The position numbers were made by a program, and so were the translations under genes. Under the pieces are notes generated by a model. That model did no database searches. It saw nothing but the letters and a program-made list of their open reading frames with translations, and was not told the DNA's origin. From positions 1-45,059 of IMG/VR virus record IMGVR_UViG_3300030012_003430: a DNA stretch of 45,059 nt, one strand, 5' to 3'. The stretch is from a virus. Positions 14,949 to 41,796 of this stretch are shown piece by piece (position 1 is the stretch's first letter; every line of letters begins with the position of its first letter).

Positions 14949-15506
14949 ATGCGTATTACAATGTCCCAGGTCAAAGAAGTTGTCCGAGAACTAATGTCCG
15001 AAGTCTACAGCGAAAAGCAACGCCGCTGGGCGTGTTCTCAGGCTGGCAAGTCACGCAAGAATTTCAAAGGCAAACCAAGCCTAACAAAAAAAGAAGCCGA
15101 CGAAATGTGCGCAGACACAAAGATCTCCAAAAAGAAAGCACAGACCGAGACCAGGACACGATATGGTAATAAATCCTTGCAGGAAGCCGACCCTAAAAAA
15201 GGAACAGGTAAAAAACCTAAAGGTTCAGGTCGCAGGCTGTACACGGACGAAGATCCAAGCGATACAGTGTCAGTCAAGTTTAGAACTGTGCAAGACATAA
15301 AAGATACATTATCTAAATCGTCTTTCAAATCTAAGTCACACAAACGTCAGTCGCAGATAATCAATTTGATACATCAGAGATCTAGGGCAGCATATCAGAA
15401 CGCTAAAGATCCAAAAGTCAAAGCTCGTCTGAAAAAGGCGTACGACTATGCCGCAGAGCGCAAAGAAGCGTCAAAGAAAAAGACACAACAAAAAAAGAAA
15501 AAGTAA
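14949..15506 (+). CDS. Small very basic protein with MRITxSQ tag (DUF5872-like)
   Basis: This 185-residue protein is rich in Lys and Arg and ends in a poly-Lys tail. It begins MRITMSQVKEVVRE, a variant of the N-terminal tag found on several proteins here, with V12-x-E14 at the same place as in its relatives. The middle contains SQAGKSRKNFKGKPSLTKKE and later GTGKKPKGSGRRLYTDEDPS, which resemble a short basic domain I recall as DUF5872 from marine phages; that name is from memory. A helical Lys/Arg/Ala region follows. A packaged nucleic-acid-binding role is plausible from charge and tag but not shown. It follows the resolvase by 14 bases. Confidence 0.75.
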   Translation: MRITMSQVKEVVRELMSEVYSEKQRRWACSQAGKSRKNFKGKPSLTKKEADEMCADTKISKKKAQTETRTRYGNKSLQEADPKKGTGKKPKGSGRRLYTDEDPSDTVSVKFRTVQDIKDTLSKSSFKSKSHKRQSQIINLIHQRSRAAYQNAKDPKVKARLKKAYDYAAERKEASKKKTQQKKKK

Positions 15507-15512
15507 AAACAC

Positions 15513-15543
15513 TTGACCTAACAACAGTGTATGCTATTATAAT
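15513..15543 (+). promoter_or_regulatory. Sigma70-like promoter before the HAD nucleotidase
   Basis: The 56-base gap between the basic protein and the HAD gene contains TTGACC (15513-15518) and, 16 bases later, TATTAT (15535-15540), overlapping a perfect TATAAT (15538-15543, 19-base spacer). A strong ribosome-binding site, GGGAGGTG, follows at about 15550. This would allow host RNA polymerase to transcribe the nucleotide and primase genes separately from the structural run upstream. It is a sequence match only. Confidence 0.6.
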
Positions 15544-15562
15544 ACTGAAGGGAGGTGCTCCT

Positions 15563-16168
15563 ATGAAGTACCAAGTCTTTAGCGATATGGATGGCGTCCT
15601 TGTCAATTTCGAGGGTGGCGTTCTAGAGTTTATGAATCGGCGCTTTAAAGAGCTTCAATATGATTTGGGTCACCCTGATCATAAACTTGCCCGATCGGCA
15701 GCCAAAGAGCTTGGCGGCTGGGACGTTGAGATCAGTAAGTGGCATATCGCTCGCTCGGATCAAGAAGGTAGTCTCAAAAGAAACTACCGCACGAGAGACT
15801 TTATGTACCGACTGGTTGAGGATAATGTAGACCTCTGGGCTAACCTCGGTTGGGAGCGTGGCGGCAAAGAACTTTGGGATTACATCAAAGGTATTCCAGG
15901 TCTTGAGATTTTGTCTGCTCCGATGGCTGAGGGTTCCAAGGTTGGCAAGCGGATGTGGGTTGAGCGAGAACTGGGTTTCCCAGTTGAAAAAGTTAATCTT
16001 TCTGATAGCAAGAAACCCTACGGAGTTTGGAACGGAAAACAAGGACTTCTGATTGACGACCGTGACAAATATGTCAACGAGTTCCGTGAGGGTGGTGGCA
16101 TCGCTATTAAACATAATCCAGATGACGTGGATAATACGATTAGGCAACTCAAGGAACTCGGACTATAA
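15563..16168 (+). CDS. HAD-superfamily 5'(3')-deoxyribonucleotidase-like phosphatase
   Basis: The chosen start is the ATG at 15563, 201 residues, because GGGAGGTG lies just upstream; an in-frame ATG at 15527 would overlap the likely promoter. Residues 8-12 are DMDGV, the HAD catalytic DxDGV motif (nucleophile D8, acid-base D10). ILSAP (S118) fits motif II, and GLLIDDRDKY (D165, D166) fits motif IV. Size and motif spacing suit the deoxyribonucleotidase branch, which dephosphorylates nucleoside monophosphates. In a phage it would tune nucleotide pools during replication. The substrate cannot be read from sequence. Confidence 0.75.
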   Translation: MKYQVFSDMDGVLVNFEGGVLEFMNRRFKELQYDLGHPDHKLARSAAKELGGWDVEISKWHIARSDQEGSLKRNYRTRDFMYRLVEDNVDLWANLGWERGGKELWDYIKGIPGLEILSAPMAEGSKVGKRMWVERELGFPVEKVNLSDSKKPYGVWNGKQGLLIDDRDKYVNEFREGGGIAIKHNPDDVDNTIRQLKELGL

Positions 16169-17116
16169 TTGCTTAACGATCCCAACTCAGCCAAAAAGAA
16201 AAGGATTCTTGACGAGATCCTTGGCAGACCACATCGCCAGGGCAAAGAATACCTGTATCTTTCACGCTGCTGCGATCATCACAAAAAGAAACTATCTGTC
16301 AACTTTGATAAGAACGTTGCCAAGTGTTGGACTTGTGATTGGCGAACAAAAAACTTACGACGACTTGTACGTCGTTGGGGTGATATCTCTCACATCAATA
16401 GATGGAAGGATTTTGACGCCGACGTTGAGCTAGGCGACCTAGACAACCTATTCTCCAAGGAAGAGGAAATAAGACAGCGAATCGACCTTCCAAATGAGTT
16501 TCAAACGCTTACTGGTCGTTCTCACCCACCCTCATCTCGCTTGGTCTTCAACTACCTCCGCAAACGTGGGGTAACAGAAAAAGATATTTTATATTGGAAG
16601 ATAGGTTACTGCGGAAGCGGGGAATATAAAAACAGAGTCATCCTGCCATCATTTGACGAAGACGGCTACTGTAACTTTTTTACGTCCCGAACATACGACC
16701 CTAATGTATGGCCTCCATATCTCAACGGACCAGGGAACAAAGATATCATCTTCAATGAACTGTTGATTGACTGGGAGCGAGAGGTCACTCTGGTTGAAGG
16801 CGTCTTTGATGCTATCGTTGCCGGCGAGAACAGCATTCCACTGCTTGGTTCAACTCTGCGAGAGAACAGTAATCTGTTCAAAAAGATTGTAAAAAATGAC
16901 ACCTCAGTCCTACTTGGACTCGACGCTGATGCTCATAAAAAAGCTATGAAACTTGTAAAAGCTCTATTGACTTATGACATTGAAGTTCGTCTGATGGATA
17001 CATCAGGTTACAAAGATATTGGAGAAATGCCCAGAGACATATTTCAACAGAGAAAAGAAGATGCGCCTTTTATTGATTCTGATGCCTATTTATTCAAGAT
17101 TGCGTTAATGGCATGA
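16169..17116 (+). CDS. DNA primase with CHC2-type zinc finger and TOPRIM domain
   Basis: This 315-residue protein starts at a TTG immediately after the preceding stop, with AAGGAACT 14 bases upstream; no ATG is better placed because the zinc finger begins at residue 34. The finger is CCDHH (residues 34-38) with CWTC at 53-56, as in DnaG-type primases. The TOPRIM domain shows VTLVEG with the catalytic E210 and GLDADAH with D252 and D254. There is no helicase domain, so a separate helicase must exist outside the window. It would make RNA primers for lagging-strand synthesis. The domain order is that of DnaG-type primases. Confidence 0.82.
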   Translation: MLNDPNSAKKKRILDEILGRPHRQGKEYLYLSRCCDHHKKKLSVNFDKNVAKCWTCDWRTKNLRRLVRRWGDISHINRWKDFDADVELGDLDNLFSKEEEIRQRIDLPNEFQTLTGRSHPPSSRLVFNYLRKRGVTEKDILYWKIGYCGSGEYKNRVILPSFDEDGYCNFFTSRTYDPNVWPPYLNGPGNKDIIFNELLIDWEREVTLVEGVFDAIVAGENSIPLLGSTLRENSNLFKKIVKNDTSVLLGLDADAHKKAMKLVKALLTYDIEVRLMDTSGYKDIGEMPRDIFQQRKEDAPFIDSDAYLFKIALMA

Positions 17117-17125
17117 GGACTCAGA

Positions 17126-17731
17126 ATGAAAATCACTCTTTCTCAAGTTCGAGAAGCTTTAAAAGAAGCTATCCTCGACGAGAAAAAGAAAAGTAAATCT
17201 AAGAAGAAGGCTTCATCTAAGCGGAAGTCCAAGAAGAAGTCTCGCCGTAAAAAGAGAAAAGCAAAGCGTGATGCATGTTATCATAAGGTAAAATCACGCT
17301 ACAAGGTCTGGCCTTCTGCTTATGCCTCAGGCGCTCTTGTCAAGTGTCGTAAGGTTGGCGCTAAGAACTGGGGCAACAGCAAAAAAGAAAGCTTGGATCT
17401 TGACTCTCTTCAAGATGTAATCCAAGAAAAAGTAGATGAGCTAGTTGAAAAGAAGAAAAAAAGCAAGAAAAGAAAACTAACCAAAAAGCCATCTTCTGAG
17501 ACAAGTCTAAGAGACTGGTTCGGTCGCAAAGGAGCTAAAGGCAAAAAGAGCGGCTGGGTAGATTGTAACACCTGTCGCAAAGACAAAAAGACAGGCAGAA
17601 AGAAATGCAGCGCTTGTGGACGTTCTACAGGTGAAAAAAGATCAAAGTACCCAAAGTGTCGTCCCACACCAGGGGCTTGCAGTGAGAGGGGCAACTACGG
17701 TAAAAAATCAAAGGCAGGGAAAAAGGGATGA
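17126..17731 (+). CDS. Basic Cys-rich protein with MKIT tag and two DUF5872-like segments
   Basis: This 201-residue protein is extremely Lys/Arg-rich. It begins MKITLSQVREALKEA: the tag with L12-K-E14 followed by A15, a perfect match to the T4 gp21 cleavage rule [LI]-x-E before A or G. A first domain has CYHKVKSRYKVWPSAYASGA with a second Cys further on. A C-terminal domain starts SLRDWFGRKGAKG and contains CNTC, CSAC and a final Cys pair, suggesting a small zinc ribbon. Both resemble short domains I recall from marine phage proteins (DUF5872-like). Its last bases overlap the next ATG (ATGA). A DNA-binding internal protein is plausible. Confidence 0.75.
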   Translation: MKITLSQVREALKEAILDEKKKSKSKKKASSKRKSKKKSRRKKRKAKRDACYHKVKSRYKVWPSAYASGALVKCRKVGAKNWGNSKKESLDLDSLQDVIQEKVDELVEKKKKSKKRKLTKKPSSETSLRDWFGRKGAKGKKSGWVDCNTCRKDKKTGRKKCSACGRSTGEKRSKYPKCRPTPGACSERGNYGKKSKAGKKG

Positions 17732-18417
17732 AAATAACAAAGTCAAAACTACTAGAAATAGTTCAAGAAGAAGTAAAGAAAGAGCTAGAATCTAAAGTAG
17801 AAAAATCCATATTAGACACTCTTACGGACGAAGGCGGTGCCGCCGGTCTTGACCCTCTTGTAAAGACAGCAAAAGAAGTTCAGCCTGGTGTCAGTGAAAA
17901 AGACATCAAAGATCTTTTAAAGAAAATGAAGAAGGTTGTACAACACAGGGACGGCGACTATATCAAAGAAGAGGTTGAAGAACTTTCTGAAGCGCATGGT
18001 CTAGATTCTGGTGATGCCAAAATCCTACGACAACACGCAACAACTCTCGATGACGGTTCTGAAATTAAAAGAATAATTAACTTTATACTAAAATCAAACG
18101 TCAAAGTTGACCAAACACAAGATGTCACCAAGATGAAGAAAGAGGAACTTGAAGAAGCTAGTAAATCATTCGACAAAGATAAGATGAAGTGCAACAAAAA
18201 GCGTTACCTTAGGAAAGGCGAGTCTGGATATGGTAAGAAGCAGAAAGTCGTCAAGGCTTGCGATAAAGGTAAAGAAAGAATTGTCAAGTTCGGCGACGGG
18301 AAAATGAAAAATAAATCATCAAGCCCAAAAAATAGAAAGAACTTCCGTTCAAGGCACAATTGTGATAATCCTGGCTCTAAGTTGAAAGCAAGATATTGGT
18401 CTTGTAAGGACTGGTAG
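17728..18417 (+). CDS. MKIT-tagged protein with C-terminal basic DUF5754-like domain
   Basis: This 229-residue protein starts within the stop of the preceding gene (ATGA). The tag is MKITKSKLLEIVQEE, with V12-Q-E14. A helical acidic and basic middle region follows (residues about 20-140). The last 75 residues form a basic domain containing IVKFGDGKMKNKSSSP and then RHNCDNPGSKLKARYWSCKD. This resembles a small domain common in marine phages that I recall as DUF5754-like; the name is from memory. No catalytic motif is visible. The context of consecutive tagged genes suggests a shared fate with its neighbours. Confidence 0.75.
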   Translation: MKITKSKLLEIVQEEVKKELESKVEKSILDTLTDEGGAAGLDPLVKTAKEVQPGVSEKDIKDLLKKMKKVVQHRDGDYIKEEVEELSEAHGLDSGDAKILRQHATTLDDGSEIKRIINFILKSNVKVDQTQDVTKMKKEELEEASKSFDKDKMKCNKKRYLRKGESGYGKKQKVVKACDKGKERIVKFGDGKMKNKSSSPKNRKNFRSRHNCDNPGSKLKARYWSCKDW

Positions 18418-18418
18418 C

Positions 18419-18874
18419 ATGAAAAATGTAATGATAGAATGGAGAAAGTTTCTCCAAGAGCAAACAACAGTCTCTATTGTGGCACCAAAAGAGTCTTCTT
18501 GTCCTCCAGCAACGCAAGACTTGAAACTTAATACCAAAAATAGAGACAATGCGATACACTCAGAGCATATTAAATATGGACCATTAAACGTTGATGAACC
18601 TGGAGATTACTGGGAAAAAATAGCCAAGTATTGGGACACCACTGTAAAGGCTGCCAAGAAGTCACTTTGTTCAAACTGTATAGCCTTTGACATATCCCCT
18701 CGAATGGACGAATGTATGCCAGGTGTAACCTCCGATAAAGATGGTAGGCTAGGCTACTGTTGGATGCACCACTTCAAGTGTCACTCTGCTAGAGCTTGTT
18801 ACACTTGGGCTAAGGGCGGACCAATATCCGAAGATAGTGTATCATATGATTGGCAGGAAAGAAGCAGTCTGTAG
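18419..18874 (+). CDS. Cys-rich protein with WRKFLQE N-terminal tag
   Basis: This 151-residue product starts one base after the preceding stop. The N terminus is MKNVMIEWRKFLQEQ, a different version of the tag in which L12-Q-E14 occupies the same position as in the MKIT proteins. The body has conserved-looking Cys residues in CPPATQ, LCSNCIAFD, DECMPG, YCWMHH and the HSARACYTW segment, suggesting a metal site or disulphides. There is no signal peptide. I recall close relatives from marine phage metagenomes but no known function. It lies in the run of tagged genes before the giant protein. Confidence 0.75.
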   Translation: MKNVMIEWRKFLQEQTTVSIVAPKESSCPPATQDLKLNTKNRDNAIHSEHIKYGPLNVDEPGDYWEKIAKYWDTTVKAAKKSLCSNCIAFDISPRMDECMPGVTSDKDGRLGYCWMHHFKCHSARACYTWAKGGPISEDSVSYDWQERSSL

Positions 18875-18884
18875 GGCGTGTGAG

Positions 18885-19061
18885 ATGAAAGAGTTGTTAA
18901 CAAAACATCTCAGAGAGCAGGAAATGAGTTATTTCCAGCACCTTCTACATGCACTAACATATTCAGCAACTCTTGCGGTCTGTTCTGTTGTTTTAGTTTT
19001 CCATGCTTTCTTTCCATTTGTTCTTGAAAAGTTTGCTTCAGATAGGGTTGAAATGAAATGA
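18885..19061 (+). CDS. 58-residue membrane protein, DUF6356-like, with LREQE tag
   Basis: The ATG at 18885 gives 58 residues; an upstream in-frame ATG at 18837 would overlap the previous gene by 38 bases and lacks a ribosome-binding site. The sequence opens MKELLTKHLREQEMSYFQHL, with L9-R-E11, another tag variant. One hydrophobic helix runs from about residue 27 to 47 and includes VLVFHAFFPFVLEKFAS. The pattern (N-terminal H-x-x-x-QEMSYxQH, then a membrane helix with HAxFPF) resembles the DUF6356 family as I remember it. The stop overlaps the start of the giant gene (ATGA). Confidence 0.7.
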   Translation: MKELLTKHLREQEMSYFQHLLHALTYSATLAVCSVVLVFHAFFPFVLEKFASDRVEMK

Positions 19062-22000
19062 AATCGATTATTGATCAATTAATAGATGAAGAGTTGATGA
19101 TAACTCAACATCCAAGAAAAGATATGATTGTTTCTGCGATCGGAAACCCAGATTTTCTCTTAACCTTTTCCGACGTTAATAAAGTTGGCATCAATCCAAA
19201 GACAAAGTTCAATACTCCTGCTGGTATTTATGGCTGGCATTTTAATCAGGAAACAATTGACGGAGCAAAGAGAAACGAGATTTTTGCTTCAGGTAGAGAT
19301 TACGGACACTTGATGAAAGTCAGGGATGGTGCCAAAGTTCTCTGGCTTGGTGATGATGGCAAGACGGGCGATGTTCCTTCACGAGAAGAAATTAATGCTG
19401 CGATTGCTAGAAAGTACCCGGCATTTACGGAAGACACTTTCCCAATTTATAATATGCCTTCTGGACCTCCAGGTTCGGATTCGCCACCTAAAAAGATGTT
19501 GGCTCAAAATAAAGAAGCCGCTCATGGTTTTGTTACGCCACAAGAATGGCTAGAAGATCCCAAACACGTTGAAACTTTGTCCAAGGTTTCCCAGCGAGAG
19601 TATGGCGGCAGCACAGAATCCGAAAAGCTTTATGACTACGTTCAGGCTGCGGCTAAGGCGTTAGAAATAGCAACTGATAAAAAGATTACTCTTTTATCCA
19701 ACGGTATTCTTCGAGCTATTGGGTACGATGCCGTCATTGATGCTGAAGGTAAGGGGATCATCCACAAGGCAGAAAGACAACAAGGTTTTTTCACACACAG
19801 GGGTGCATTGGATCATATAACAACAATCCCTAACAAGCAATATGTTTTTAGAGATTCTACTTTATATAAACTGCTTCGAGAGCCTGGTGTTCCTGTAGAC
19901 AAAAAAGCGGCAGCCCTAAAAATACTTTTGAGCAACAAACCAAAAGTAGCTCCAGGTGCCGATCCACAATTCGCCGCTGATTTTCAGAAGAGTGATATAT
20001 TTGATACTTTAGATTATATGACAGACGACCTAAGAAATCCGCTTAGTTCTGAGATGATTGGGGACATACTGAACTGGATTGACAAGAATGGCGAGCAGAG
20101 TCCTTTGATGATAGGTAAGATATTGCAGAATCTGTTCAAACACCCTGGTATGTCTAAGGAAATGATCGAACAAGCCCTAAAGAAAGAACAAGACCCAGAG
20201 ATTTATCGCTCGATACTTCTAAATCCTAATGCTCCAGAAGACTTCCTAAAGAAAGTATACTTTGGTAATTTAGTTATTCCCTTTGACGGTGACGAGGTTG
20301 CTGCTGTTTTGGGTAGTCCCAATGTTCCTGTCGGTCTTTTAAACTATGAGGCAGCCCAGTATGCTGCGGTAGAACCCAATGAACAACTTGGAAGATATCG
20401 TGGTGGAGACAATAGGCGTGCTCGCCGAGCTAGAGAAGTCTTGATGAGTCCTAATGTTACAGAGGAAATATTTAACAAAGTCGCCAGGCTAGAAAATGGC
20501 GAACTTGATTTGAACAGAAGACTTGTTAGTGATGCCCTTAGTGGCAAGAACGTCCCTATGAGTTATTACAGGGACATCTTAGATAGCATGTATGATGGAA
20601 CAATCCCAGACTATACATCAGACGAGCATCTTTTTGATATGATTCGTAGTCAATACACTCCTGAAGAAGTTCAGATAGAGGTATTGAAGAACTACGAAAA
20701 GCTTGCTGGGCTTAGCAATTATCGTGTGACTCTTATGCCAAGTCTAAAGTTTGCCCTTCGTTCTCGTTTCAATGCCTCTGGTAAAAGACCGTCCAAGAAA
20801 TATCTGGAAGCAATGAAAGAGGTATATAATACAATTGCTAGCGATAAGAAAAAGTTTGTTACTGATGGGTTTTCTTTAGAAAAAATTGAAGCACTATTTT
20901 CTAAACTTGGAGTGAAAGTAAACGAGGGTATGGATTTAAAGTCTTTATTGAGAAAAGTCATAAACGAAACAATAAACCAAGAGCGAGTTTATCAAGTCAA
21001 CAAAAAACTTTACGAAGAATATGCTGAATGTCTTGGCGAAGATATGCGAACAACTTTTTGGGATCTGCCCGAAGAAGCCAAGAACTTTGTGATTGAAGAT
21101 TGGATAGAACAAGGCAAACCAGGACAATCTATCGCAGAACAACTTTTCGGTTCCCGATCAGAATTAGAACAACCCTTCCACCAACTCAATGAGATTAGTA
21201 GCGAAGTTTATGATTATCTTGCTGATGCTGCTGCTAGTTTGTCTGCCTCAGAGTTGCGACCATTGTTCGGAGACAACGAACGTGTAATCATCCCTATGGT
21301 CTCAGAAGAGAATGAGCAGGTCAAAGAATTTTACGAGATGATCGTTGAGCCGCTCGCAGCCAAAGGCATCAAGGTTGACCTTAAGAATGGTGTCGCAACC
21401 AAAGAGATTGAGACACAACGAGGGAAACAAGAAAGAAAAACAAAACTAGGCAAGACCATCGGCAAAGAACTTTCAGCCGCTACACAAAAGTGGTGGAACA
21501 AGTTCCAAGCTGACTTCCTAGGTAATCCAGAAATCTTAGAAGCCCAAGACGCTATCATAATCACTCAGCACCCACTCGACGTAGCAAGAATGTCAGATTT
21601 CAGCGAATCAGATATTCAATCCTGCCACTCAGAAGGTTCTGACTATTTTAGATGTGCTTTAGCTGACGCAAACCGTGCGGGTGCCGTGGCCTATTTGATT
21701 GATGGCGAAGATGTGCCCTATGCTCAAGAACACATCAAAGATACAGAGTTGTTTGCTGATCGCCAAAGAGACGTTGAAGGTATTACGCCAAGAGCCCGTG
21801 TTCGTCTCCGCAGATTTGATAACATCAATGCTGCGAAAGAGGGCGGACCTCTAGCCCTTCTTGCTCCAGAAACCAGAGTGTATGGCAAGAAGGTACCAGG
21901 ATTCTTGAGTACTGTTGCTGCTTGGGCTCGCAGCGTCCAACAGGGAAACCCAGTCTTCAAAGAAAAGCAGAATCTTAATAACTTTATAATGCGTGGTGGT

Positions 22001-24637
22001 TCGTACACTGATACACCACCTTACAAAATGTTTAATGCTTTGCTTGGAGAAGATGAGTATGACGGCGCAGACTACACCCGAAAAATGGGCGAAGAAAGCG
22101 ATGTGGATTATGAAGACCCCGCCCGAGTACAGGAAATGATTGATGCTGCTGCTGAGGCAATGGCTGAAGCCAAATATGATTATCTTAATGACGAGAATGT
22201 TGAGTTTGATTATGATGTCCAGTGGGATGAATGGAGTGAAGCACCAGAGATAAACTATAGCATTAAGGTTATGTTTGACTATCCAGTCTATAAGTTTATT
22301 GGTGCCCCAAATGTTGGAAGCGAAGAAGAATATAGCAAAGAAGAGATGATTAGTGCTCTACGCCGTCAGTCAGCAATGGGAGCCGTAAGAGATGTAGCCG
22401 AAAACGCATACGACAACTCCGACTACTACGACCAGTACATGGACTATAGGTGGAGTGCCAGCATCCAAGAGCGAAGGTTCGGCAGTGAGACAAGACCCGT
22501 AGTTGAGGTCATCGCATTTATTGAAGATGTAACTCACGACCCTGACAACTTTGGATACGAAGTTGCTGATAAAGTTAAGTCTTACCTCTTAGATGAATGG
22601 GAAGAAATTGACAGAGAAATAGAAACCGCTCTTAAAGAAGACGGTTGGATGATCCAACAACCTTATGACAGAATCAAGGTTGACCCAGAAGATGTGAAGA
22701 AACTAGGTTCAGAATCTTTTGAGAACTTCAGCATAGTTAAAGATGCCGATAGGGGCATTAAAGCCTCGATGTCTGAAAGACTTCAGGGCTATCCACTAGG
22801 CGGCACTCGTGTGGCTTACTCAGTGGTCAATGACGAGAAAGTGCCCGTTAGGTACCCATCAGGTCCAAAACTTGTTGAGATCATTAGGGAAACAGGCGAA
22901 GACTTTAATGTCATCTCAGGCACAGGTTGGACTATTTTGGGGTTCTCGCCAGAGCGACGAAACAATGTCCTAAAGACAATCAGAAAAGAGATTATGGATG
23001 CCGCCAGAGCAGCAGCCTCACAACCTAGCCTGCCGCTTGACTTGCCTGATGGCGAGAAGCAAGATGTAGAAAAACTGTTGCCGGCTGTGGATGAAGTTCA
23101 GGTTGGACTCAGACAGGAGTCTGTAACATTACAACCATACAGAAGAAAAGGTCAGCCAGAGTATGCTGCTCAGGGTGCCATTATCTTTACATTTAAGCCA
23201 AGCGATAGCCAAGAACAGATTGATACCAATCTCAAGTTTGTTAAGTATCTTGATAATAACCCAGAGCCAATCTACGATGCCATTCAAAAAGAGTGGACCG
23301 AGATCTTAGACATCTTTGAAAAAGAGTTGCCCTTACAAAAGGAGCCACCAAAACAAGAATCTCTAAAATCAACCTTACAAAACTTGATTAAGGAAGTTCT
23401 AACTGAAGCCAAGTTTGAGAACGAAGCAACGAAGATGGTAAGAGATGCTGTAAAGAACATTAAGGACCATCTACGAGCTAACGGCGGAGAGCCTAGGATC
23501 AAGCCACGCTTTGGGTCAATAGAGAATCCTCTAGAAAGTATTGTCTATGATAAGAAGTACTTTGGAGGACTTCCCGACAGGTTAGCTGACCAAGGCATCG
23601 TCAAGGTAACTTTCAGTATGAAGGTCGAGCCTTCTACCGCTTTTGGCGAAGGTAAGAAGTTCGGCGTTGACGGGAAGACAATCACATATGACGACGATGA
23701 CCCTCGTTCAGGGGAAACCGCAAGAGAGCGTCAAGTTGTTGTGAATGTTTATCTTTCAGACGAGTTCAGTATGAAGGATATGTCTAGACTTGTTGAGAAG
23801 ATGAAAGATACGGCGGTACATGAGATTACTCACGGTGGTCAATCTACTGATATATTAAGAAAGTCAGGGAGAGCCCAGATGAAAGCTTTTCAGTACGGAT
23901 TGACTTCTATAGACGCTCTTCGGCTTTATTATCTTGATCCCGCAGAAACCGAAGCATATGCTCGTGGTCTTTATAAGCGAGCCAAGATGTCTAAAGTACC
24001 TTACACAGCCAAGTTAGATGAGCAGATAAACGAGCTTTTAGACTTCTACAGTCACCCCAAAATGTTGGAGAAGAAAGACACTCAATACACAGAAGAAGAG
24101 GTAAAAGACTTTTTCAAAAACGAATATCGACAATCACTTATCGACTATGCTAAAAAGAACTTGCCTGCTGCTGTGATTGAGAATCTAATTAGAGAAGCTA
24201 TGGAAGATGAAGATTACGACGGAGTAGACTCAATTGACTACAAGGGCGAGCACTCTGCCCCAGTGGCGGAAGACGGTGCTCCTCTATGGAACGTTTCAGC
24301 CAACGGTATATATCCAGATGATGTCTACGGACCAAATGGTTTGAGTTGGTACGGAACTGGCGATAACGACAAGGATGAAATAGCTTATAATATTATAGCA
24401 GGTAAAAACGGTGCCCAGAACAACCCCGAGTATGAAGTAGAAATACACCGAGCCGTCCCAAGAGGTATACAAGGTATCAATCGGGGTGATTGGGTTACAA
24501 TCGTAAAGGGATATGCTGAAGACCATGGCGAGAGTGCTCTTAAAGGTGAATACGAGATCATAAGTAAAACCGTCAAAGCTAAAGACATTTTCACTGACGG
24601 TAACTCTTGGCTAGAGTGGGGATACGACCCGCAATGA
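19058..24637 (+). CDS. Giant multidomain protein: ART-like, LRV-repeat, central and HExxH zincin modules
   Basis: This 1859-residue protein (about 210 kDa) starts in an ATGA overlap. The N terminus, MKSIIDQLIDEELM, is a tag variant. Residues about 15-270 include TPAGIYGWHF (53-62) and GYDAVID (222-228) followed by GIIH and a Phe pair, a layout like ADP-ribosyltransferases of polyvalent phage proteins; weak evidence. Residues about 386-500 hold LRV-like repeats with the cores LNPNAP, GSPNVP, MSPNVT and GKNVP. A second tag-like segment lies at 625-637 (MDLKSLLRKVINE). The middle contains ITQHPLDVARMSDF and QSCHSEG (854-860); ITQHP also occurs at 15-19. A third tag-like segment (1434-1451) ends LTEA, an exact gp21-type site. 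The last module has HEITH at 1588-1592 and ETEAY at 1630-1634, a zinc metalloprotease signature. It may be a polyprotein. Confidence 0.8.
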   Translation: MKSIIDQLIDEELMITQHPRKDMIVSAIGNPDFLLTFSDVNKVGINPKTKFNTPAGIYGWHFNQETIDGAKRNEIFASGRDYGHLMKVRDGAKVLWLGDDGKTGDVPSREEINAAIARKYPAFTEDTFPIYNMPSGPPGSDSPPKKMLAQNKEAAHGFVTPQEWLEDPKHVETLSKVSQREYGGSTESEKLYDYVQAAAKALEIATDKKITLLSNGILRAIGYDAVIDAEGKGIIHKAERQQGFFTHRGALDHITTIPNKQYVFRDSTLYKLLREPGVPVDKKAAALKILLSNKPKVAPGADPQFAADFQKSDIFDTLDYMTDDLRNPLSSEMIGDILNWIDKNGEQSPLMIGKILQNLFKHPGMSKEMIEQALKKEQDPEIYRSILLNPNAPEDFLKKVYFGNLVIPFDGDEVAAVLGSPNVPVGLLNYEAAQYAAVEPNEQLGRYRGGDNRRARRAREVLMSPNVTEEIFNKVARLENGELDLNRRLVSDALSGKNVPMSYYRDILDSMYDGTIPDYTSDEHLFDMIRSQYTPEEVQIEVLKNYEKLAGLSNYRVTLMPSLKFALRSRFNASGKRPSKKYLEAMKEVYNTIASDKKKFVTDGFSLEKIEALFSKLGVKVNEGMDLKSLLRKVINETINQERVYQVNKKLYEEYAECLGEDMRTTFWDLPEEAKNFVIEDWIEQGKPGQSIAEQLFGSRSELEQPFHQLNEISSEVYDYLADAAASLSASELRPLFGDNERVIIPMVSEENEQVKEFYEMIVEPLAAKGIKVDLKNGVATKEIETQRGKQERKTKLGKTIGKELSAATQKWWNKFQADFLGNPEILEAQDAIIITQHPLDVARMSDFSESDIQSCHSEGSDYFRCALADANRAGAVAYLIDGEDVPYAQEHIKDTELFADRQRDVEGITPRARVRLRRFDNINAAKEGGPLALLAPETRVYGKKVPGFLSTVAAWARSVQQGNPVFKEKQNLNNFIMRGGSYTDTPPYKMFNALLGEDEYDGADYTRKMGEESDVDYEDPARVQEMIDAAAEAMAEAKYDYLNDENVEFDYDVQWDEWSEAPEINYSIKVMFDYPVYKFIGAPNVGSEEEYSKEEMISALRRQSAMGAVRDVAENAYDNSDYYDQYMDYRWSASIQERRFGSETRPVVEVIAFIEDVTHDPDNFGYEVADKVKSYLLDEWEEIDREIETALKEDGWMIQQPYDRIKVDPEDVKKLGSESFENFSIVKDADRGIKASMSERLQGYPLGGTRVAYSVVNDEKVPVRYPSGPKLVEIIRETGEDFNVISGTGWTILGFSPERRNNVLKTIRKEIMDAARAAASQPSLPLDLPDGEKQDVEKLLPAVDEVQVGLRQESVTLQPYRRKGQPEYAAQGAIIFTFKPSDSQEQIDTNLKFVKYLDNNPEPIYDAIQKEWTEILDIFEKELPLQKEPPKQESLKSTLQNLIKEVLTEAKFENEATKMVRDAVKNIKDHLRANGGEPRIKPRFGSIENPLESIVYDKKYFGGLPDRLADQGIVKVTFSMKVEPSTAFGEGKKFGVDGKTITYDDDDPRSGETARERQVVVNVYLSDEFSMKDMSRLVEKMKDTAVHEITHGGQSTDILRKSGRAQMKAFQYGLTSIDALRLYYLDPAETEAYARGLYKRAKMSKVPYTAKLDEQINELLDFYSHPKMLEKKDTQYTEEEVKDFFKNEYRQSLIDYAKKNLPAAVIENLIREAMEDEDYDGVDSIDYKGEHSAPVAEDGAPLWNVSANGIYPDDVYGPNGLSWYGTGDNDKDEIAYNIIAGKNGAQNNPEYEVEIHRAVPRGIQGINRGDWVTIVKGYAEDHGESALKGEYEIISKTVKAKDIFTDGNSWLEWGYDPQ

Positions 24638-24675
24638 AAAAACTATGGATACGCTAGACTATGTTTTGGGGAACA

Positions 24676-24683
24676 AATAAATA
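24676..24683 (+). promoter_or_regulatory. Candidate T4-late-type promoter element
   Basis: The 73-base gap after the giant gene contains AATAAATA at 24676-24683, one base different from the T4 late element TATAAATA and 27 bases before the next ATG. The gap also has a weak inverted repeat, TTTGGG with CCCAAA, spaced about 22 bases apart and without a T run. Low confidence, because the region is AT-rich. Confidence 0.25.
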
Positions 24684-24710
24684 AAAGAATCTTCCCAAAC
24701 TATTTACTAT

Positions 24711-26028: not shown

Positions 26029-26280
26029 ATGAAAATCACCAAATCACAACTAAGACAACTTATCAAAGAAGAGCTTCTTAGGGAAACAAGGGAACTACAA
26101 GGAGACCCAATTGAGATTATGGGCGGATTCAAGATGTTAAGCTCAGGGCTCCGAAACCTTCAGAGAGGTCTTTCTAAAGAGCAAGGTCTTTCTAAAGAGC
26201 AGCAAGGTGAATATTCACGTGAATTTATGGAATTAAGAAAAGAACTTGTCGCTTTGCGAAAAAAAGTGCTGGGAATGTAA
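26029..26280 (+). CDS. Small MKIT-tagged helical protein (83 aa)
   Basis: The ATG at 26029 is preferred over 26017 because GGAG lies six bases upstream of it and because it places the standard tag at the N terminus: MKITKSQLRQLIKEE, with I12-K-E14. The rest is predicted helical and charged, with a short repeat GLSKEQGLSKEQ around residues 47-58 from an 18-bp tandem duplication. There is no membrane segment. Its stop is directly followed by another tagged gene. Function is unknown. Confidence 0.7.
   Translation: MKITKSQLRQLIKEELLRETRELQGDPIEIMGGFKMLSSGLRNLQRGLSKEQGLSKEQQGEYSREFMELRKELVALRKKVLGM
26167..26202 (+). repeat. 18-bp tandem duplication inside a tagged gene
   Basis: Two adjacent 18-base units (26167-26184 and 26185-26202) differ only at their last base and encode GLSKEQ twice. 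The duplication keeps the frame. It looks recent and suggests tolerance of length change in this part of the protein. Confidence 0.9.
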
Positions 26281-26281
26281 A

Positions 26282-26428
26282 ATGAAAATAACCAAGTCCC
26301 AACTCATAAAAATGATCAGAGAAGAGATTATGGCAGAGCGCTGCCAGAAGGGTTACAAGACCCACGAAAAACGCAAGACCAAAAAGATGTTCGGCAGAAC
26401 ATACAGAAACTGCGTCAAAGCAGACTAA
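26282..26428 (+). CDS. 48-residue MKIT-tagged basic protein
   Basis: This very short gene starts one base after the preceding stop. Its first 15 residues, MKITKSQLIKMIREE, closely match the tag of the upstream gene, and the DNA is similar too, so the pair may share a recent origin. I12-R-E14 sits at the tag position. The remaining 33 residues are basic with two Cys (ERCQKGYKTHEKRKTKKMFG, then NCVKAD). Removal of the tag would leave a peptide of about 34 residues. No function is recognised. Confidence 0.7.
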   Translation: MKITKSQLIKMIREEIMAERCQKGYKTHEKRKTKKMFGRTYRNCVKAD

Positions 26429-31855: not shown

Positions 31856-31856
31856 T

Positions 31857-32412: not shown

Positions 32413-32440
32413 TTATTGTTACTGAGGAGGTGCTATAACT

Positions 32441-32937: not shown

Positions 32938-32948
32938 GGAAATGTTTT

Positions 32949-34196: not shown

Positions 34197-34197
34197 A

Positions 34198-35015: not shown

Positions 35016-35541
35016 GGGTTTGAACCAGGCAGCAGCAAATGCTTATGATGGTGCAGATCTAGAAGAAAACATTGGTCTCAACAGAGAAGAGGGTGATCCT
35101 ATTCTTGATAGTCGCATGATGGACGGATTCAAAGTTCGTTTTGCCGCAGACAAAATGATTCTAACATATCACGGGGAAGTGATGCTAAAAGAGCTTCACC
35201 CAAGAAATCAGTTTGAGAATGAGATGGAACAGCGTTTTGTAGACATTGTCAAGTTCCTTAAGAAAGAATATAAGAATATAACAAAAGAGTCCGTAACTCT
35301 ATCAGAGGTAGCGCCAGTAGATATGATGGTTCAATCTACCTCTAGAGTTCGCTCCTGGGTTCAGGCTTCTAAACAATATAGCATTGGTCAACTCAAGGAT
35401 GTTGTTGCTGTCCGTCGTCCATCAGGACAACCTGAGGATCGCCCACACGAGAAGGTATTTCGTGATTTTCTTGAACTAGCTTCTGACAAAAGACCATCTA
35501 ACGATACATCTACTAAGAATCCTGAAACACCGGAGGCATAA
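34990..35541 (+). CDS. Conserved packaging-region protein, possible small terminase or head-completion factor
   Basis: This 183-residue protein starts with MATVLDVIKGLNQAAANAYD and has a clear GGAG ribosome-binding site. It has mixed helical and beta content with no nucleotide or metal motif, and a disordered Pro/Asp/Ser tail. Its stop overlaps the ATG of the large terminase. Position would suit a small terminase subunit, but there is no helix-turn-helix I can point to. A neck or tail-completion protein is equally possible. Confidence 0.7.
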   Translation: MATVLDVIKGLNQAAANAYDGADLEENIGLNREEGDPILDSRMMDGFKVRFAADKMILTYHGEVMLKELHPRNQFENEMEQRFVDIVKFLKKEYKNITKESVTLSEVAPVDMMVQSTSRVRSWVQASKQYSIGQLKDVVAVRRPSGQPEDRPHEKVFRDFLELASDKRPSNDTSTKNPETPEA

Positions 35542-37112
35542 TGCCGTCCAATAAAAAGGAGGTAATGGCAGAGATCGTCCGCTGCGGAAAAGATCCAGTC
35601 TACTTTTGCAACCATCACGCAAAGATCTCCCACCCATTGAAAGGACTCATTCCTTTCGATATGTACGAATTTCAGGAAGACACCCTAAGAGACTTCAAGG
35701 ATAACAGGTTTAGTGTCATCCTCAAGGCTCGTCAGTTAGGTATTTCGACGAGTGTGGCAGCTTACGTCTGCTGGATGATGCTTTTTCATCGAGATAAGAA
35801 TGTTCTTATTGTAGCCACAAAGCTACAAACTGCTACTAACCTAGTCAAGAAAATAAAGGCAATCCATAAAAACTTACCAAGCTGGCTAAAGATTGCAAAT
35901 ATTTCTATTGACAACCGAACCTCTTTTGAGTTATCTAATGGTTCACAGGTAAAGGCTTCATCTACTTCTGGCGATGCTGGTCGTTCGGAAGCCTTGTCAC
36001 TTCTCGTTGTTGACGAAGCTGCTTTCGTTGATGGTATGGAAGAGCTATGGGCTGGTCTCTATCCTACCCTGTCAACTGGTGGTCGCTGCATTGCCTTATC
36101 TACACCTAACGGTGTTGGTAACTGGTTTCACAAAACATATACAGAGGCAGAAGAAGGAAAGAATGACTTCCACACTATCTGTCTTCCTTGGGAAGTACAC
36201 CCAGAGCGTGACCAAGAATGGTTTGATAAAGAAACCAGAAATATGTCTCGTCGTGAAATCGCACAGGAGCTTGAGTGTAACTTCAATGCTTCGGGCGAAA
36301 CCGTGGTTCACGGGGATGACTTAAAATTAATCTTAGAAAATGTAAGAGAACCAGAGAGAAGAACTGGCTTTGATAGAAACTATTGGATCTGGAAGGAGCC
36401 AAGAGACGGACACGAGTATGTTCTAGTAGCTGATGTGGCTAGAGGCGACGGTTCAGATTTTAGTGTTGCTCATGTTTTTGATACACACAGTATGGAGCAG
36501 GTCGCCGAATATCAAGGGAAGGTAACTCCAGATATGTTTGCTCCTTTGCTTTATTCAATAGCTGGAGAGTACAACGATGCTTTACTTGTGATTGAGAACA
36601 ACTCTTTGGGCATTGGTGTCCTAAGTCGATTACAGGACCTAGACTATAAAAATTTATATTATAGTGTAAAATCTACTCACGAATATGTTGATGAAGTCAC
36701 CGCAGAAGCTGTTGGTGGTGTGCCTGGATTTACTATGTCTATGAAAACTCGACCACTTGTTATTGCGAAGTTTGAAGAATTCGTTAGAAATAAACTAATT
36801 ACCATTAATTCCATGCGTTTAGCAAATGAGATAAAAACATTTGTTTGGCACAATGGAAGACCACAGGCAATGAGAAGCTATAATGATGATCTTGTTATAG
36901 CTGCTTCTATTGGTTGCTGGGTTCGAGGAACAGCACTGACTGCAAACAAGCGGGAGGAGACCTATAAAAAAGCCTTACTAAGCAGCATATCAAAAACTAA
37001 TAAAACTTTGAACACAAGAATTGAGGGGCAACATGGATTCAAAGCGCAACCCCAAAAATTTAGAGGAACAGATGGCAGAATGCACGACTTAGGATGGATA
37101 ATAAAGGGATAA
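35541..37112 (+). CDS. terL: Terminase large subunit, T4 gp17-type
   Basis: This 523-residue protein is near the usual terminase length. The ATPase half has the variant Walker A KARQLGIST (62-70), Walker B LLVVDEA (154-160, D158, E159) and the coupling motif ALSTPNG (185-191). The nuclease half has D298 in LVADVARGDGSD, E352 in LVIENNS and D448/D449 in YNDDLVIAA, the RNase H-like acidic cluster. The enzyme powers DNA packaging and cuts concatemers. The portal gene follows after three bases, as expected for a packaging operon. Confidence 0.95.
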   Translation: MPSNKKEVMAEIVRCGKDPVYFCNHHAKISHPLKGLIPFDMYEFQEDTLRDFKDNRFSVILKARQLGISTSVAAYVCWMMLFHRDKNVLIVATKLQTATNLVKKIKAIHKNLPSWLKIANISIDNRTSFELSNGSQVKASSTSGDAGRSEALSLLVVDEAAFVDGMEELWAGLYPTLSTGGRCIALSTPNGVGNWFHKTYTEAEEGKNDFHTICLPWEVHPERDQEWFDKETRNMSRREIAQELECNFNASGETVVHGDDLKLILENVREPERRTGFDRNYWIWKEPRDGHEYVLVADVARGDGSDFSVAHVFDTHSMEQVAEYQGKVTPDMFAPLLYSIAGEYNDALLVIENNSLGIGVLSRLQDLDYKNLYYSVKSTHEYVDEVTAEAVGGVPGFTMSMKTRPLVIAKFEEFVRNKLITINSMRLANEIKTFVWHNGRPQAMRSYNDDLVIAASIGCWVRGTALTANKREETYKKALLSSISKTNKTLNTRIEGQHGFKAQPQKFRGTDGRMHDLGWIIKG

Positions 37113-37115
37113 AAA

Positions 37116-39005
37116 ATGGCAGACGATTATAACTCAAACAATAATGACGGAAACAACCCCCGCAACCAACAGTCACCTCTCTTCAAGAGACTGACAAGGC
37201 TTTTCAGTGGTCCAATCGTAAACTACGACCGACCATCTTTTAGTCGTTCTAGTCGGAAGGACGTTACAAAATATACTTTCACTAGCGGCACTGGTCGTGA
37301 GTTCAAGAAAAAAGAATACCACAACCCTTTTGGAAGTCTTAGCAATCAGGTTCTGCATGCAAGAAGCAAGCAAATTAGGTACACTGATTTTGACCAGATG
37401 GAATATATGCCTGAGATTGCATCAACACTTGATATTTATGCAGATGAAATAACAACTTCAACTGCGCTTAGTCCAATCATCTCTATCGAGTGTGCCAACA
37501 GAGAGATCAAAGAGATCATCAGCACCTTGATGTTTACTGTTCTAAATATCGAAGCTAATCTATTTGGTTGGTCCCGAGGGATGTGTAAATATGGCGACTA
37601 CTATCTTTATCTAGATATCGATGATAAGATGGGCATTACCAATGTTATCCCACTCCCAGTCCGTGAGATTGAGCGAATTGAGGGAGCAGATAAAACAAAT
37701 CCAAATTATATTCAATACTTCTGGACAGGTGCTGAAGGCAATAAGGGCGTAACCTTTGAGAACTGGCAGGTATGCCATTTCAGAGTTATTGGCAATGACA
37801 AGTATGTTCCAAACGGAACTTCAGTGCTTGAGCCGTCACGTCGTATTTGGCGTCAGCTAACTCTGCTCGAAGATGCTATGATGGCTTATCGTATTGTTCG
37901 TTCCCCTGAACGACGAGTTTTCTATATCGATGTTGGCAACATTTCTCCAGAGGATGTTGAGGGCTACATCGAGCAAGTCAAAACACAAATGAAGCGCAAC
38001 CAGATTGTTGACGAAGACAGCGGTCGTGTTGATTTGCGCTACAATGCAATGAGTGTCGATGAGGATTACTACATCCCTATTCGTGGCGCTGCCAGCAATA
38101 CAAGAATCGAAACCTTGGCTGGTGGACAGTTTACAGGCGATATCGACGACGTTAACTACTTGAGAGATAAGCTCTTCTCAGCGCTTAAGATTCCAAAGGC
38201 TTACTTGGCACAATCTGACGCTATCGAAGACAAGACAACTCTATCACAAAAAGACATTCGCTTTGCAAGAACTATCCAAAGGCTGCAAAGAACTGTTATT
38301 GCTGAGTTGGAAAAGTTGGCAATCATTCACCTTTATACCCTAGGGTACAGGGATTCTGACTTAACATCTTTTAATATTACCCTAAACAACCCATCTAAGA
38401 TTGCTGAACTGCAAGAACTTGAGCATCTTCGTACTAAGTTTGATATTGCAGGTGCAGCAACAGATGGCTACTTCTCCAAGCACTGGGTGTACAAAAACAT
38501 CTTCAAGCTTGATAACGAAGAGATTGACAGAATCCAGATCGAAATGTATGGCGATGCCCAGTTCGGCGCTGCTATCGAAGAGGCAGGCACAATTCCAGAA
38601 ACAGAAGGTGGTGCAGGTGGTGACGATCTTGACTTAGGTCTTGGCGGCGAAACACCCGCAGAAGATACACCAGCCGAAGAGGAAGAACCAGGACCACTAC
38701 TAGCAGAACCAGAGCCCGGTCAGCGTGATGATGGCAAACCTCGTGGCAGACAGAGCCGAGGAGCCAACAAGAGATCGCAACTTGCTTCTGGTGGCGGACA
38801 AAATGTAGCGTCCGTTGGAAATAAAAGAGCACTATATAGAGGAGACAATATCTCTAATCTTGCCCGTTCAATCAATTCTCTAGGCAAAGGAATAGTTAGA
38901 ACTAGAGAATCAGTTGATAAAGAAGAACAAATATTGTTTAGCAACCAGTATGAGATTGATAGACTAATAGAACAACTAGGGACAAAAAATGAAGGTCAAG
39001 CATAA
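37116..39005 (+). CDS. gp20: Portal protein, T4 gp20-type
   Basis: This 629-residue protein lies directly after the terminase. Motifs such as YTDFDQMEYMPEIASTLDIY, VRSPERRVFYIDVGN, GDIDDVNYLRDKLFSALKIP and KTTLSQKDIRFARTIQRLQR fit gp20-type portals, which form the dodecameric ring at the special head vertex. The last 130 residues or so are an acidic Pro/Glu/Gly-rich segment followed by a basic one, probably disordered and longer than in T4. Its end overlaps the next gene by 17 bases. Confidence 0.92.
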   Translation: MADDYNSNNNDGNNPRNQQSPLFKRLTRLFSGPIVNYDRPSFSRSSRKDVTKYTFTSGTGREFKKKEYHNPFGSLSNQVLHARSKQIRYTDFDQMEYMPEIASTLDIYADEITTSTALSPIISIECANREIKEIISTLMFTVLNIEANLFGWSRGMCKYGDYYLYLDIDDKMGITNVIPLPVREIERIEGADKTNPNYIQYFWTGAEGNKGVTFENWQVCHFRVIGNDKYVPNGTSVLEPSRRIWRQLTLLEDAMMAYRIVRSPERRVFYIDVGNISPEDVEGYIEQVKTQMKRNQIVDEDSGRVDLRYNAMSVDEDYYIPIRGAASNTRIETLAGGQFTGDIDDVNYLRDKLFSALKIPKAYLAQSDAIEDKTTLSQKDIRFARTIQRLQRTVIAELEKLAIIHLYTLGYRDSDLTSFNITLNNPSKIAELQELEHLRTKFDIAGAATDGYFSKHWVYKNIFKLDNEEIDRIQIEMYGDAQFGAAIEEAGTIPETEGGAGGDDLDLGLGGETPAEDTPAEEEEPGPLLAEPEPGQRDDGKPRGRQSRGANKRSQLASGGGQNVASVGNKRALYRGDNISNLARSINSLGKGIVRTRESVDKEEQILFSNQYEIDRLIEQLGTKNEGQA

Positions 39006-40345: not shown

Positions 40346-40356
40346 AAAGAGGAAAA

Positions 40357-40701: not shown

Positions 40702-40708
40702 TAGTATC

Positions 40709-40727
40709 GTGCGGGTAACGCCCGCAC
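40709..40727 (+). other. GC-rich RNA hairpin just before the prohead protease gene
   Basis: GTGCGGG (40709-40715) and CCCGCAC (40721-40727) form a perfect 7-bp stem with a 5-base loop, in an otherwise AT-rich sequence. It lies 15 bases before the protease ATG and directly before its AAGGAG ribosome-binding site. There is no T run, so a classic terminator is unlikely. It may set an RNA processing end or adjust translation of the protease. Confidence 0.6.
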
Positions 40728-40742
40728 TCTAAGGAGATAAAA

Positions 40743-41339
40743 ATGAATAACAAATATGTCTTACAAGAGTTTATGGATCTGGATTACAGTGGTGATCTCC
40801 TCACAGAAGAAGAGCGTGAGGGGAATCGTAACGGTACCCACCTTGTTGTAGCTGGCAAAATCCAGTGTGCAAACACTCCAAATGGAAATGGTAGAGTTTA
40901 CTCAGAAGATCTACTAAGACGAGAGATGAAGAACTATGAGAAGTTGGTCAAAGAGCGCCGAGCAACAGGAGAACTAGATCATCCAGACAATTCAGTCGTC
41001 ACTCTAGCAAATGTGAGCCACCTTGTCACACAGGTCTGGTGGAAGGGTAATGATGTGATGGGTAAAATCAAAATCTTAGACACCCCGGCAGGTCAAATTG
41101 CTAAGCAGCTTGTTGGTGGCGGAGTCCAACTTGGAATTTCTAGTCGTGGTTTGGGCTCAACTCGTCAAGAGAATGGAGTCACAATGGTAGAGGACGACTT
41201 CCAACTACTATGCTTCGACTTAGTATCAGAACCAAGTACAGCAGGAGCCTTTATGGTAGCCGAGAGCAAAGAGTTGAAAAAGTACCTAACAAAAGCAGAT
41301 CGAATCAATCGTGCCTTGAACGACATTTTAGGCACATAA
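40743..41339 (+). CDS. gp21: Prohead protease, T4 gp21-type
   Basis: This 198-residue protein is of usual gp21 length. It carries TPNGNGRVYS (45-54), GELDHPDN with the catalytic His at residue 80, and QLGISSRGLG with the catalytic Ser at 133 or 134, the pattern of the herpesvirus-protease-like gp21 family. T4 gp21 cleaves head proteins after [LI]-x-E, before A or G. Its own N terminus has DLLTEEE, a candidate autocleavage site. The protease is central to the tag hypothesis because its expected rule fits the E at the end of the tags, the scaffold and the capsid protein. Confidence 0.93.
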   Translation: MNNKYVLQEFMDLDYSGDLLTEEEREGNRNGTHLVVAGKIQCANTPNGNGRVYSEDLLRREMKNYEKLVKERRATGELDHPDNSVVTLANVSHLVTQVWWKGNDVMGKIKILDTPAGQIAKQLVGGGVQLGISSRGLGSTRQENGVTMVEDDFQLLCFDLVSEPSTAGAFMVAESKELKKYLTKADRINRALNDILGT

Positions 41340-41352
41340 AAAAGAGGTTATA

Positions 41353-41796
41353 ATGAAAAAGTCGGAACTAAAAAATCTTATCAAAGAATGTATTAAAGAA
41401 GTTATCTTTGAGGAAGGCGTACTCTCCAACATTGTGACAGAGGTCGCAACAGGAATGAGAGCAACTACCAATGTTGGTGTGGTCAGAGAATCACCAACAC
41501 CACAGGTGGAATCTCAAATGAGAGACCTAGCCAGAGTGAGTAACGAGGCAGCTAAAATTCTTGATGGTAAGAGGAGCGAAGTTATGAACGCTCTTGGAAG
41601 AAGTGCATATGACGGCTTGGCAAGCAAGTTCTCTGACCAGGGATATTTCGAAGGCACTCAGCCCCTCAGAGAGGGAGCCCAGAAAGGAAACCCATTATCA
41701 AGCCAAGCACCCGGCGATGCAGGATTAGATATTTCAAATATCCCAGGATTTCAAAACTGGGGCAAAGTTTCAAACAAAATAGAAAGTAAAAAATAA
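41353..41796 (+). CDS. Tagged head-module protein (147 aa)
   Basis: The gene starts 13 bases after the protease. Its N terminus, MKKSELKNLIKECIKEVIFEEG, is a shortened tag with I10-K-E12, and IFEEG gives a second possible site. The remainder is Ser/Asn/Gln/Gly-rich with one helical part (QMRDLARVSNEAAKILDG). It is the only tagged gene inside the head module, which links the tag to head assembly. Its last base overlaps the next start. Confidence 0.72.
   Translation: MKKSELKNLIKECIKEVIFEEGVLSNIVTEVATGMRATTNVGVVRESPTPQVESQMRDLARVSNEAAKILDGKRSEVMNALGRSAYDGLASKFSDQGYFEGTQPLREGAQKGNPLSSQAPGDAGLDISNIPGFQNWGKVSNKIESKK

Follow-up and report, generated by a model that had tools for sequence, protein, structure and literature searches.

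Why should a set of proteins with unrelated sequences, all encoded by one virus, begin with the same short peptide? The question arises from a contig of 45,059 bases that derives from a T4-like marine phage and includes a T4-type head module (IMG/VR record IMGVR_UViG_3300030012_003430, positions 1 to 45,059; hereafter, the window), in which a preliminary description had singled out N-terminal tags with a hydrophobic residue at position 12 and Glu at position 14. By reference to phage T4, the tagged proteins had been taken for packaged cargo that is cleaved after Glu14 by a gp21-type prohead protease. Our analysis makes it very likely that the tags serve as T4-type capsid-targeting propeptides, such that the proteins bearing them would be loaded into the head, cut by the S77 (gp21-type) protease, and probably injected. 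Hundreds of similar viral contigs also bear a tag from this small, interchangeable set on proteins that are otherwise unrelated. The sequences themselves show which tags there are and how they are distributed, that tags are swapped between bodies, that the joints of tag and body coincide, and that the tags are linked to the S77 protease.

Two Classes of N-Terminal Tags on Unrelated Proteins

Five window proteins (named here by the position of their first base) begin with M[KR]IT-x-S-[QK]-[LV], all with a hydrophobic residue at position 12 and Glu at position 14 (class A; Table 1), and the starts previously assigned to them (14949, 17126, 17728, 26029, and 26282) are exact. The class A consensus is MKITKSQLKQIIKEE[LIV], with per-position frequencies that are inflated, as the search pattern itself partly fixed most tag positions. 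A degenerate DNA pattern matched the tag in over 119 viral DNA segments, compared with no matches for a version with scrambled residues, and the class A pattern had no match among 84,980 bacterial and archaeal genomes. The fetched loci contain 214 class A-tagged open reading frames (ORFs), representing 178 to 184 distinct bodies according to the length threshold applied, and Met immediately precedes the tag in 198 of 206 in-frame occurrences. Across an alignment of 110 tagged proteins (mean column identity, 5%), conservation is confined to the tag. The pair of [ILV] at position 12 and Glu at position 14 is weak evidence when taken alone, because it occurs in 122 of 3,239 untagged ORFs of at least 80 residues (3.8%); the joint class A motif is far beyond chance. 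A tag profile built on 40 rows, 26029 and 17728 among them, matched three of the five class A proteins of the window (26029, E = 7e-11; 26282, 4e-9; 17728, 7e-9), and up to 14 profile matches were obtained per record. The SEKQRRWAC motif of 14949 is found again in other phages (L038, L043, and L120), on proteins that bear the MKIT tag, and tagged homologs of 26282 are present in L057, L066, L087, and L089. Short tag queries run by tblastn against annotated phages returned nothing useful, the queries being too short, and MKITKSQL, KITKSQLKQ, and KITKSQLRQ are not mentioned in the open-access literature searched.

The sixth protein assigned to the set, 18419 (WRKFLQE, with L12-x-E14), also has an exact start and a genuine tag. 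What the preliminary description missed is that WRKFLQE, judging by its relatives, represents a separate, second class of tag (class B, MKxLFENWRKFLxE), carried by at least 46 unique proteins with the consensus MK[KL]L[FLM]ENW[RN][KR][FY]L[NK]E. Glu occupies position 14 in 44 of these 46 proteins, and conservation stops sharply there. A stricter class B DNA pattern had matches in nine viral DNA segments and in none of the bacterial and archaeal genomes. Homologs of 18419 in other phages, where the body is annotated as a high-potential iron-sulfur protein, retain the W-containing N terminus. Additional loci fetched with one class B protein display MK[KNQ]LLTEWR[KQ][FY]L[KAN]E (with one GTG start) on very different bodies, the underlying search having been seeded partly by the tag itself.

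Tag Exchange and the Probable Cleavage Sites

Downstream of the class A tag, sites of the form [ILVMF]-x-E↓[AGS] (the arrow marks the presumed cut) are strongly enriched, mainly with Glu at positions 18, 21, 22, and 27. Such sites lie at residues 17 to 30 in 60 of 178 class A proteins, against a mean of 17 and a maximum of 29 after shuffling, and no enrichment is seen in the same set when Asp, Lys, or Gln stands in for Glu. Class A shows a clear preference for a small residue following Glu, and class B does not.

The exchange of tags is the strongest evidence on where the cut lies: homologous bodies occur with a tag of either class, A or B, and their joints fall together at [ILV]-x-E. For instance, L105 (class B) and L043 (class A) share a body, and BLAST aligns HLNE↓GDGQVSN with SIIE↓GDGQVSN; in L120, L090, and L030, the protein's own L/F-x-E aligns at the joint likewise, and in L050, L054, and L078, it does so within one residue. 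A body homologous to 17728 carries a class B tag in L062. Given the coincident joints between the two classes and the site enrichment, class A tags are probably cut mostly at Glu18-22 rather than at Glu14, whereas class B fits a cut at Glu14. Hence, the originally proposed Glu14 site is retained for the W-class but is probably not the main one in the MKIT class. In class A, Glu14 may be an additional cut site, because multiple cuts within one propeptide are documented in phage SPN3US (PMC10052503). When all homologous pairs are considered, the joints coincide in 237 of 243 cases, with 233 expected, a comparison that says nothing about the joints, since any two class A tags can be aligned; the joint evidence is restricted to the class A-B pairs and the long protein described below.

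Within a locus, tags encoding the same 15 residues differ by 2.8 bases, compared with 5.2 between loci and 6.5 expected from codon use, and neighboring identical residues keep different preferred codons (CAA for Q7 and CAG for Q10). From this likeness within loci and the position-specific codons, it seems that one gene acquires its tag DNA as a copy from another. At the same time, synonymous codons vary at every position that has synonyms, and therefore selection acts on the peptide.

Link to the S77 Prohead Protease

The gp21-type protease previously claimed for the window is indeed encoded at 40743, as identified by profile matches and by the head-module order portal-protease-scaffold-gp23 (Table 1). 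S77 was found in 28 of 40 tagged records and in 6 of 24 random ones (p = 0.0007). Contigs of at least 50 kb do not discriminate (17 of 22 tagged vs. 4 of 6 random); large contigs often carry S77 anyway, so a reverse test was needed. Among records not selected by tag, a tag match was obtained in 10 of 26 S77-positive but only 1 of 18 S77-negative records (p = 0.016).

None of the tagged records checked whose contig covers the protease position is without S77. In the S77-negative tagged records checked for a T4 portal, either the portal is absent as well or the contig ends before the protease position, S77 being expected ~3.5 kb downstream of the portal start (G031, G037, G089, and G091; Table 1). 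In four other large S77-negative records (G097, G098, G103, and G107), the tag genes lie close to the contig end. Conversely, homologs of window cargo are untagged in five complete genomes of S77-less phages, namely, Roseobacter phage CRP-902, Actinomycetia phage DSL-LC01, and three spring-water phages. The scan for co-occurrence of tag and protease that had been suggested thus yielded no counterexample where the head module is complete, and the association of the tagged cohort with a gp21-type protease is strongly supported across phages; the parts that need correction are the cut site of the MKIT class, probably mostly Glu18-22, and the protein 18885 (see below).

A Long Multidomain Protein and Proposed Cargo

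Protein 19058 contains, before its metallopeptidase-like HEITH domain, an internal tag-like segment that had been overlooked (Table 1). In L005, the HEITH domain is a separate class B protein (FLQE↓GRYEAAT; FLQE↓GRYEAATTELTR), the joint of which aligns with the Glu of 19058. Besides the HEITH domain, 19058 matches a ParB C-terminal domain (phrog_2579, E = 9e-31). On the simplest reading, 19058 would be a candidate cargo polyprotein with protease sites at its domain borders; this is the least certain part of our account and draws on one protein and its relative (19058 and L005).

The majority of tagged bodies belong to no identifiable family. Class B cargo includes matches to ART-PolyVal (PF18760; L258, 6.3e-15, and L252, 6.6e-8, both above the family cut-off; L015, 2.8e-4, below it), as well as acetyltransferase-like, transglutaminase-like, and DUF2608 matches. 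Tagged cargo is predicted to include ADP-ribosyltransferases (ARTs); T4 Alt, which is packaged and injected, is an enzyme of this kind (PMC9026906, PMC5512222). The quality of the AlphaFold prediction for one ART-like tagged protein (mean pLDDT 43.7) was insufficient for interpretation. Three window cargoes are strongly basic, but the notion that tagged cargo is generally basic, in the manner of the T4 internal proteins (IPs), was rejected, because charge computation shows that it is not basic overall.

Tag-Like N Termini in the Head Module and Elsewhere

The conserved head-module gene 41353 begins with MKKSELKNLIKECIKEV (class C), and relatives with the same protease share the same gene; in more distant tagged phages, MKKSDLKxLIKPxVKECIHEVLLEEG takes the place of this N terminus. 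Its product is a candidate prohead core protein, and by analogy with T4 core proteins, a head-module gene with a cargo-tag-like N terminus would fit a role in core assembly. Among the shorter tag variants listed previously, 41353, conserved and adjoining the protease, was upheld, but 18885 was rejected: it is a DUF6356 protein, and its N terminus is not a tag because the profile match (PF19883, residues 3-56, E = 7e-13) includes it.

Flavobacterium phage immuto, the nearest cultured phage identified with tags of this sort (MKKSQL...IIKE), has four MKKS[QE][LI]-type N termini on different proteins. Further N termini common to different proteins of this cultured phage (L149:2087-18932) are of the MENFDLKKFLVENKLTxNSKxLxE and ILSEQFRRMQKLAGIITES types and probably represent more tag classes; LKELAGIISEN is also present in L233 (G016). 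The N terminus MKIKKSILIEAVRKVIKE / MTKKLLTEVVRKVLLE recurs in L005, L196, L216, L221, and L223 on one body family, which bears a class B tag in L118 and L051. Three adjacent genes of Microcystis phage Mel-JY01 (L242:45277-47719) encode MIKL[KM]SLxxE followed by RVWH[LV]T bodies, and L006 has MIKLKSLIRES on a body that is MKIT-tagged in L056.

Other Genes of the Window

The gene at 43445, tried as a capsid protein, was rejected in that role and is scaffold-like. Within the head module, between protease and scaffold, lies a homolog of ribosomal protein S21 (41796-42086; PF01165, E = 1e-10), and RpsU is annotated at the matching position in phage Mel-JY01. The window also encodes an M50 (site-2 type) membrane peptidase (25190-25993; PF02163, E = 1e-55) and a single 1,050-residue protein in which calcineurin-type phosphoesterase and AAA/SMC domains (SbcD/SbcC) are fused (26499-29651). 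Immediately 3' of the latter is a DNA methylase gene (29603-30669; PF01555, E = 9e-19). A direct repeat of 49 bases (92% identity) flanks the methylase gene, so that the upstream gene has its 3' end, including the stop codon, duplicated; the region looks like a cassette insertion.

Table 1. Features of the window and portal positions in S77-negative tagged records (an arrow marks a presumed cut)
Feature	Location	Strand	Remarks
Class A protein, MRITMSQVKEVVRE	14949..15506	+	Basic body with SEKQRRWAC motif; net charge +32 after residue 22
Class A protein, MKITLSQVREALKE↓A	17126..17731	+	Very basic (+49); VWPSAYASG domain; phrog_727, E = 3e-23
Class A protein, MKITKSKLLEIVQEE	17728..18417	+	C-terminal RHNCDNPGxKxKARYWSC domain; tagged homolog L061
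Class B protein, MKNVMIEWRKFLQE	18419..18874	+	Cys-rich body; homologs in L005 and L087 keep W8 and E14
Multidomain protein, N terminus MKSIIDQLIDEEL	19058..24637	+	1,859 residues; metallopeptidase-like HEITH at 23819-23833 (residue 1588)
Internal tag-like segment of 19058, KSTLQNLIKEVLTE↓AKFENEATKMVR	23366..23407	+	Residues 1437-1450, AKFENEA next; domain boundary
LIRE↓A site of 19058 (Glu1713)	24188..24196	+	At the end of the stand-alone homolog
Class A protein, MKITKSQLRQLIKEE / MKITKSQLRQLIKEELLRE	26029..26280	+	Tagged homolog L099
Class A protein, MKITKSQLIKMIREE	26282..26428	+	48 residues; body CQKGYKTHEKRKTKKMFGRTYRNCVK
TerL	35541-37112		Closest annotated relative in Flavobacterium phage immuto, 45% identity
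T4-type portal (gp20)	37116..39005	+	PF07230, E = 3.5e-82
S77 (gp21-type) prohead protease	40743..41339	+	PF03420, E = 1.3e-25; phrog_207 head maturation protease, E = 3e-52
Class C head-module gene, MKKSELKNLIKECIKEVIFEEG / MKKSELKNLIKEC	41353..41796	+	Conserved, directly 3' of protease; adjoins S77 in relatives
Scaffold-like protein (gp22 position)	43445..44452	+	LREA and LLE sites; immuto homolog directly precedes immuto gp23
Major capsid protein gp23	44483..45059	+	Ends at contig end; TGLLEG and LLKES sites; PF07068, E = 9.9e-15
Portal of record G031	100-1263	-	S77-negative, tagged
Portal of record G037	22080 of 23,964-base contig		S77-negative, tagged
Portal of record G089	1190-2353	-	S77-negative, tagged
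Portal of record G091	10158 of 13,704		S77-negative, tagged

Proposed Mechanism and Alternatives

Under capsid targeting, a short, probably amphipathic-helical N terminus would bind the prohead core during head assembly, and diverse cargo, such as basic DNA-binding-like proteins and enzymes, would enter the prohead via the tag. S77 would then cut after [ILVF]-x-E, at Glu14 in the W-class and mostly at Glu18-22 in the MKIT class, and the cargo freed within the head would probably be injected alongside the DNA. We propose that new bodies join the set by tag fusion, duplication, and swapping because the tag alone is recognized. More broadly, we lean toward the view that in a large group of marine T4-like phages, a few interchangeable peptides make almost any protein into head cargo, with cargo genes spreading through the shuffling of tags and some polyproteins being split at internal tags by the prohead protease; the cohort of each phage, delivered together with the DNA, would then comprise up to a dozen or more proteins, including ADP-ribosyltransferases, acetyltransferases, peptidases, and nucleic acid-binding proteins.

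Several observations weigh against this account. L061, a near relative of 18419, has Arg at position 14, and untagged homologs of 18419 are present in tagged phages (L066 and L070). Two cyanophages with S77 give no match to the tag profile, and thus not all S77 phages are tagged; G016, with weak gp23-like pieces and without S77, is one unclear case. Many tagged contigs are fragments without the head module, so that the S77 link rests on the contigs that reach it. Finally, tagged bodies are slightly acidic on average, unlike the basic T4 IPs, and mostly of unknown family.

The predominance of bodies of unknown family, together with the alternation of hydrophobic and charged residues in the tag and the fact that cleavage is inferred from sequence, would also suit an uncut amphipathic helix that directs proteins to the inner membrane, replication site, tail, or baseplate, LxE being a helix pattern. 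A localization helix would, however, leave unexplained why the enrichment is specific to Glu as opposed to Asp, Lys, or Gln, why swapped tags and bodies meet directly after [ILV]xE, why tags are linked to S77, with a similar N terminus on the gene adjoining the protease, and why the same bodies are untagged in S77-less phages; we consider it improbable. The position-specific codons of Q7 and Q10 and the greater likeness of tag DNA within a locus could instead reflect an element acting as DNA or RNA, such as a translation leader or a recombination site, with the peptide incidental. Yet synonymous codons vary wherever synonyms exist, the same bodies stand behind class A and class B tags, the DNA sequences of which are unrelated, and the same peptide logic recurs inside the long protein 19058, which makes such an element very improbable. 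Hardly any probability at all attaches to ordinary tandem paralogy, in which the N terminus would be shared by descent and have no tag function: several tagged genes do stand in tandem, but the tag is kept across many phages while the bodies are unrelated, and both the swaps and the homologous bodies with different tags contradict it.

If the tags are capsid-targeting propeptides, they would offer a sequence-only key for picking out, from thousands of unnamed phage proteins, those that large marine phages carry in the virion and probably deliver to the host. For uncultured phages, the set of injected effectors could then be listed and tested, and the single packaging tag available from T4 would be joined by new ones for loading proteins into phage capsids.

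Comparison with Known Packaging Systems

T4 gp21 cuts after L/I-x-E, and the propeptides comprise 10-19 residues (PMC9026906). In the T4 genome, IPII and IPIII begin with MKTYQEFIAE↓A and IPI with MKTFKEF...ITE19↓A (sites at 10 and 19), and the IPI propeptide appears to extend to ITE19↓A, like class A Glu18-22. Diverse internal proteins of T-even phages share the conserved capsid targeting sequence (CTS) alone (PMC3012670, citing Repoila 1994; PMC9026906), and the CTS has been proposed as a general route into capsids (PMC9026906). The tag set had been presented as novel; conservation of the tag alone was already established in T-even phages, but the tag classes appear new.

Like the T4 IPI, IPII, and IPIII propeptides, the tags are short N-terminal peptides of variable length on diverse proteins, end in L/I-x-E, and are accompanied by an encoded gp21 homolog (PMC9026906, PMC3012670). 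A shared short peptide on unrelated proteins, an L/I-x-E end, and S77 in the genome are the features by which a CTS is recognized, and all were found here; the T4 sequence MKTYQEFIAE itself was not matched, the expectation being family resemblance rather than strict identity. Unlike the T4 CTS, the tags have other sequences (MKITKSQLKQIIKEE and MKxLFENWRKFLxE), fall into at least two classes within one genome, reach 14 profile matches per record, are swapped, and recur once in the interior of a long protein; the scale of their use is also far larger. With the T4 CTS, class B has F-[LI]-x-E in common, and class A only M-K and I-x-E. In view of this partial likeness, the tags would work like a CTS, yet, as far as their residues can tell, do not belong to the T4 CTS lineage.

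In SPN3US and phiKZ, which have a related S80 protease, ejected head proteins have N-terminal propeptides cut after Glu (PMC5694885, PMC10052503), similar to the cut that we infer here, but most of them span 111-254 residues, and the portions of this literature available report no short tag common to many unrelated proteins. Packaging and injection have also been predicted for phage polyvalent proteins (PMC5512222), which share with the tagged cohort the ART-PolyVal, GNAT, metallopeptidase, and ParB-like domains and which 19058 may resemble in its multidomain organization; here, in contrast, the domains are mostly separate tagged proteins, and a presumed, tag-like cut site separates domains of 19058. 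Within the open-access literature searched, there appears to be no precedent for the two tag classes, for how many of these tags occur per genome and per environment, for the exchange between them, or for the internal copy.

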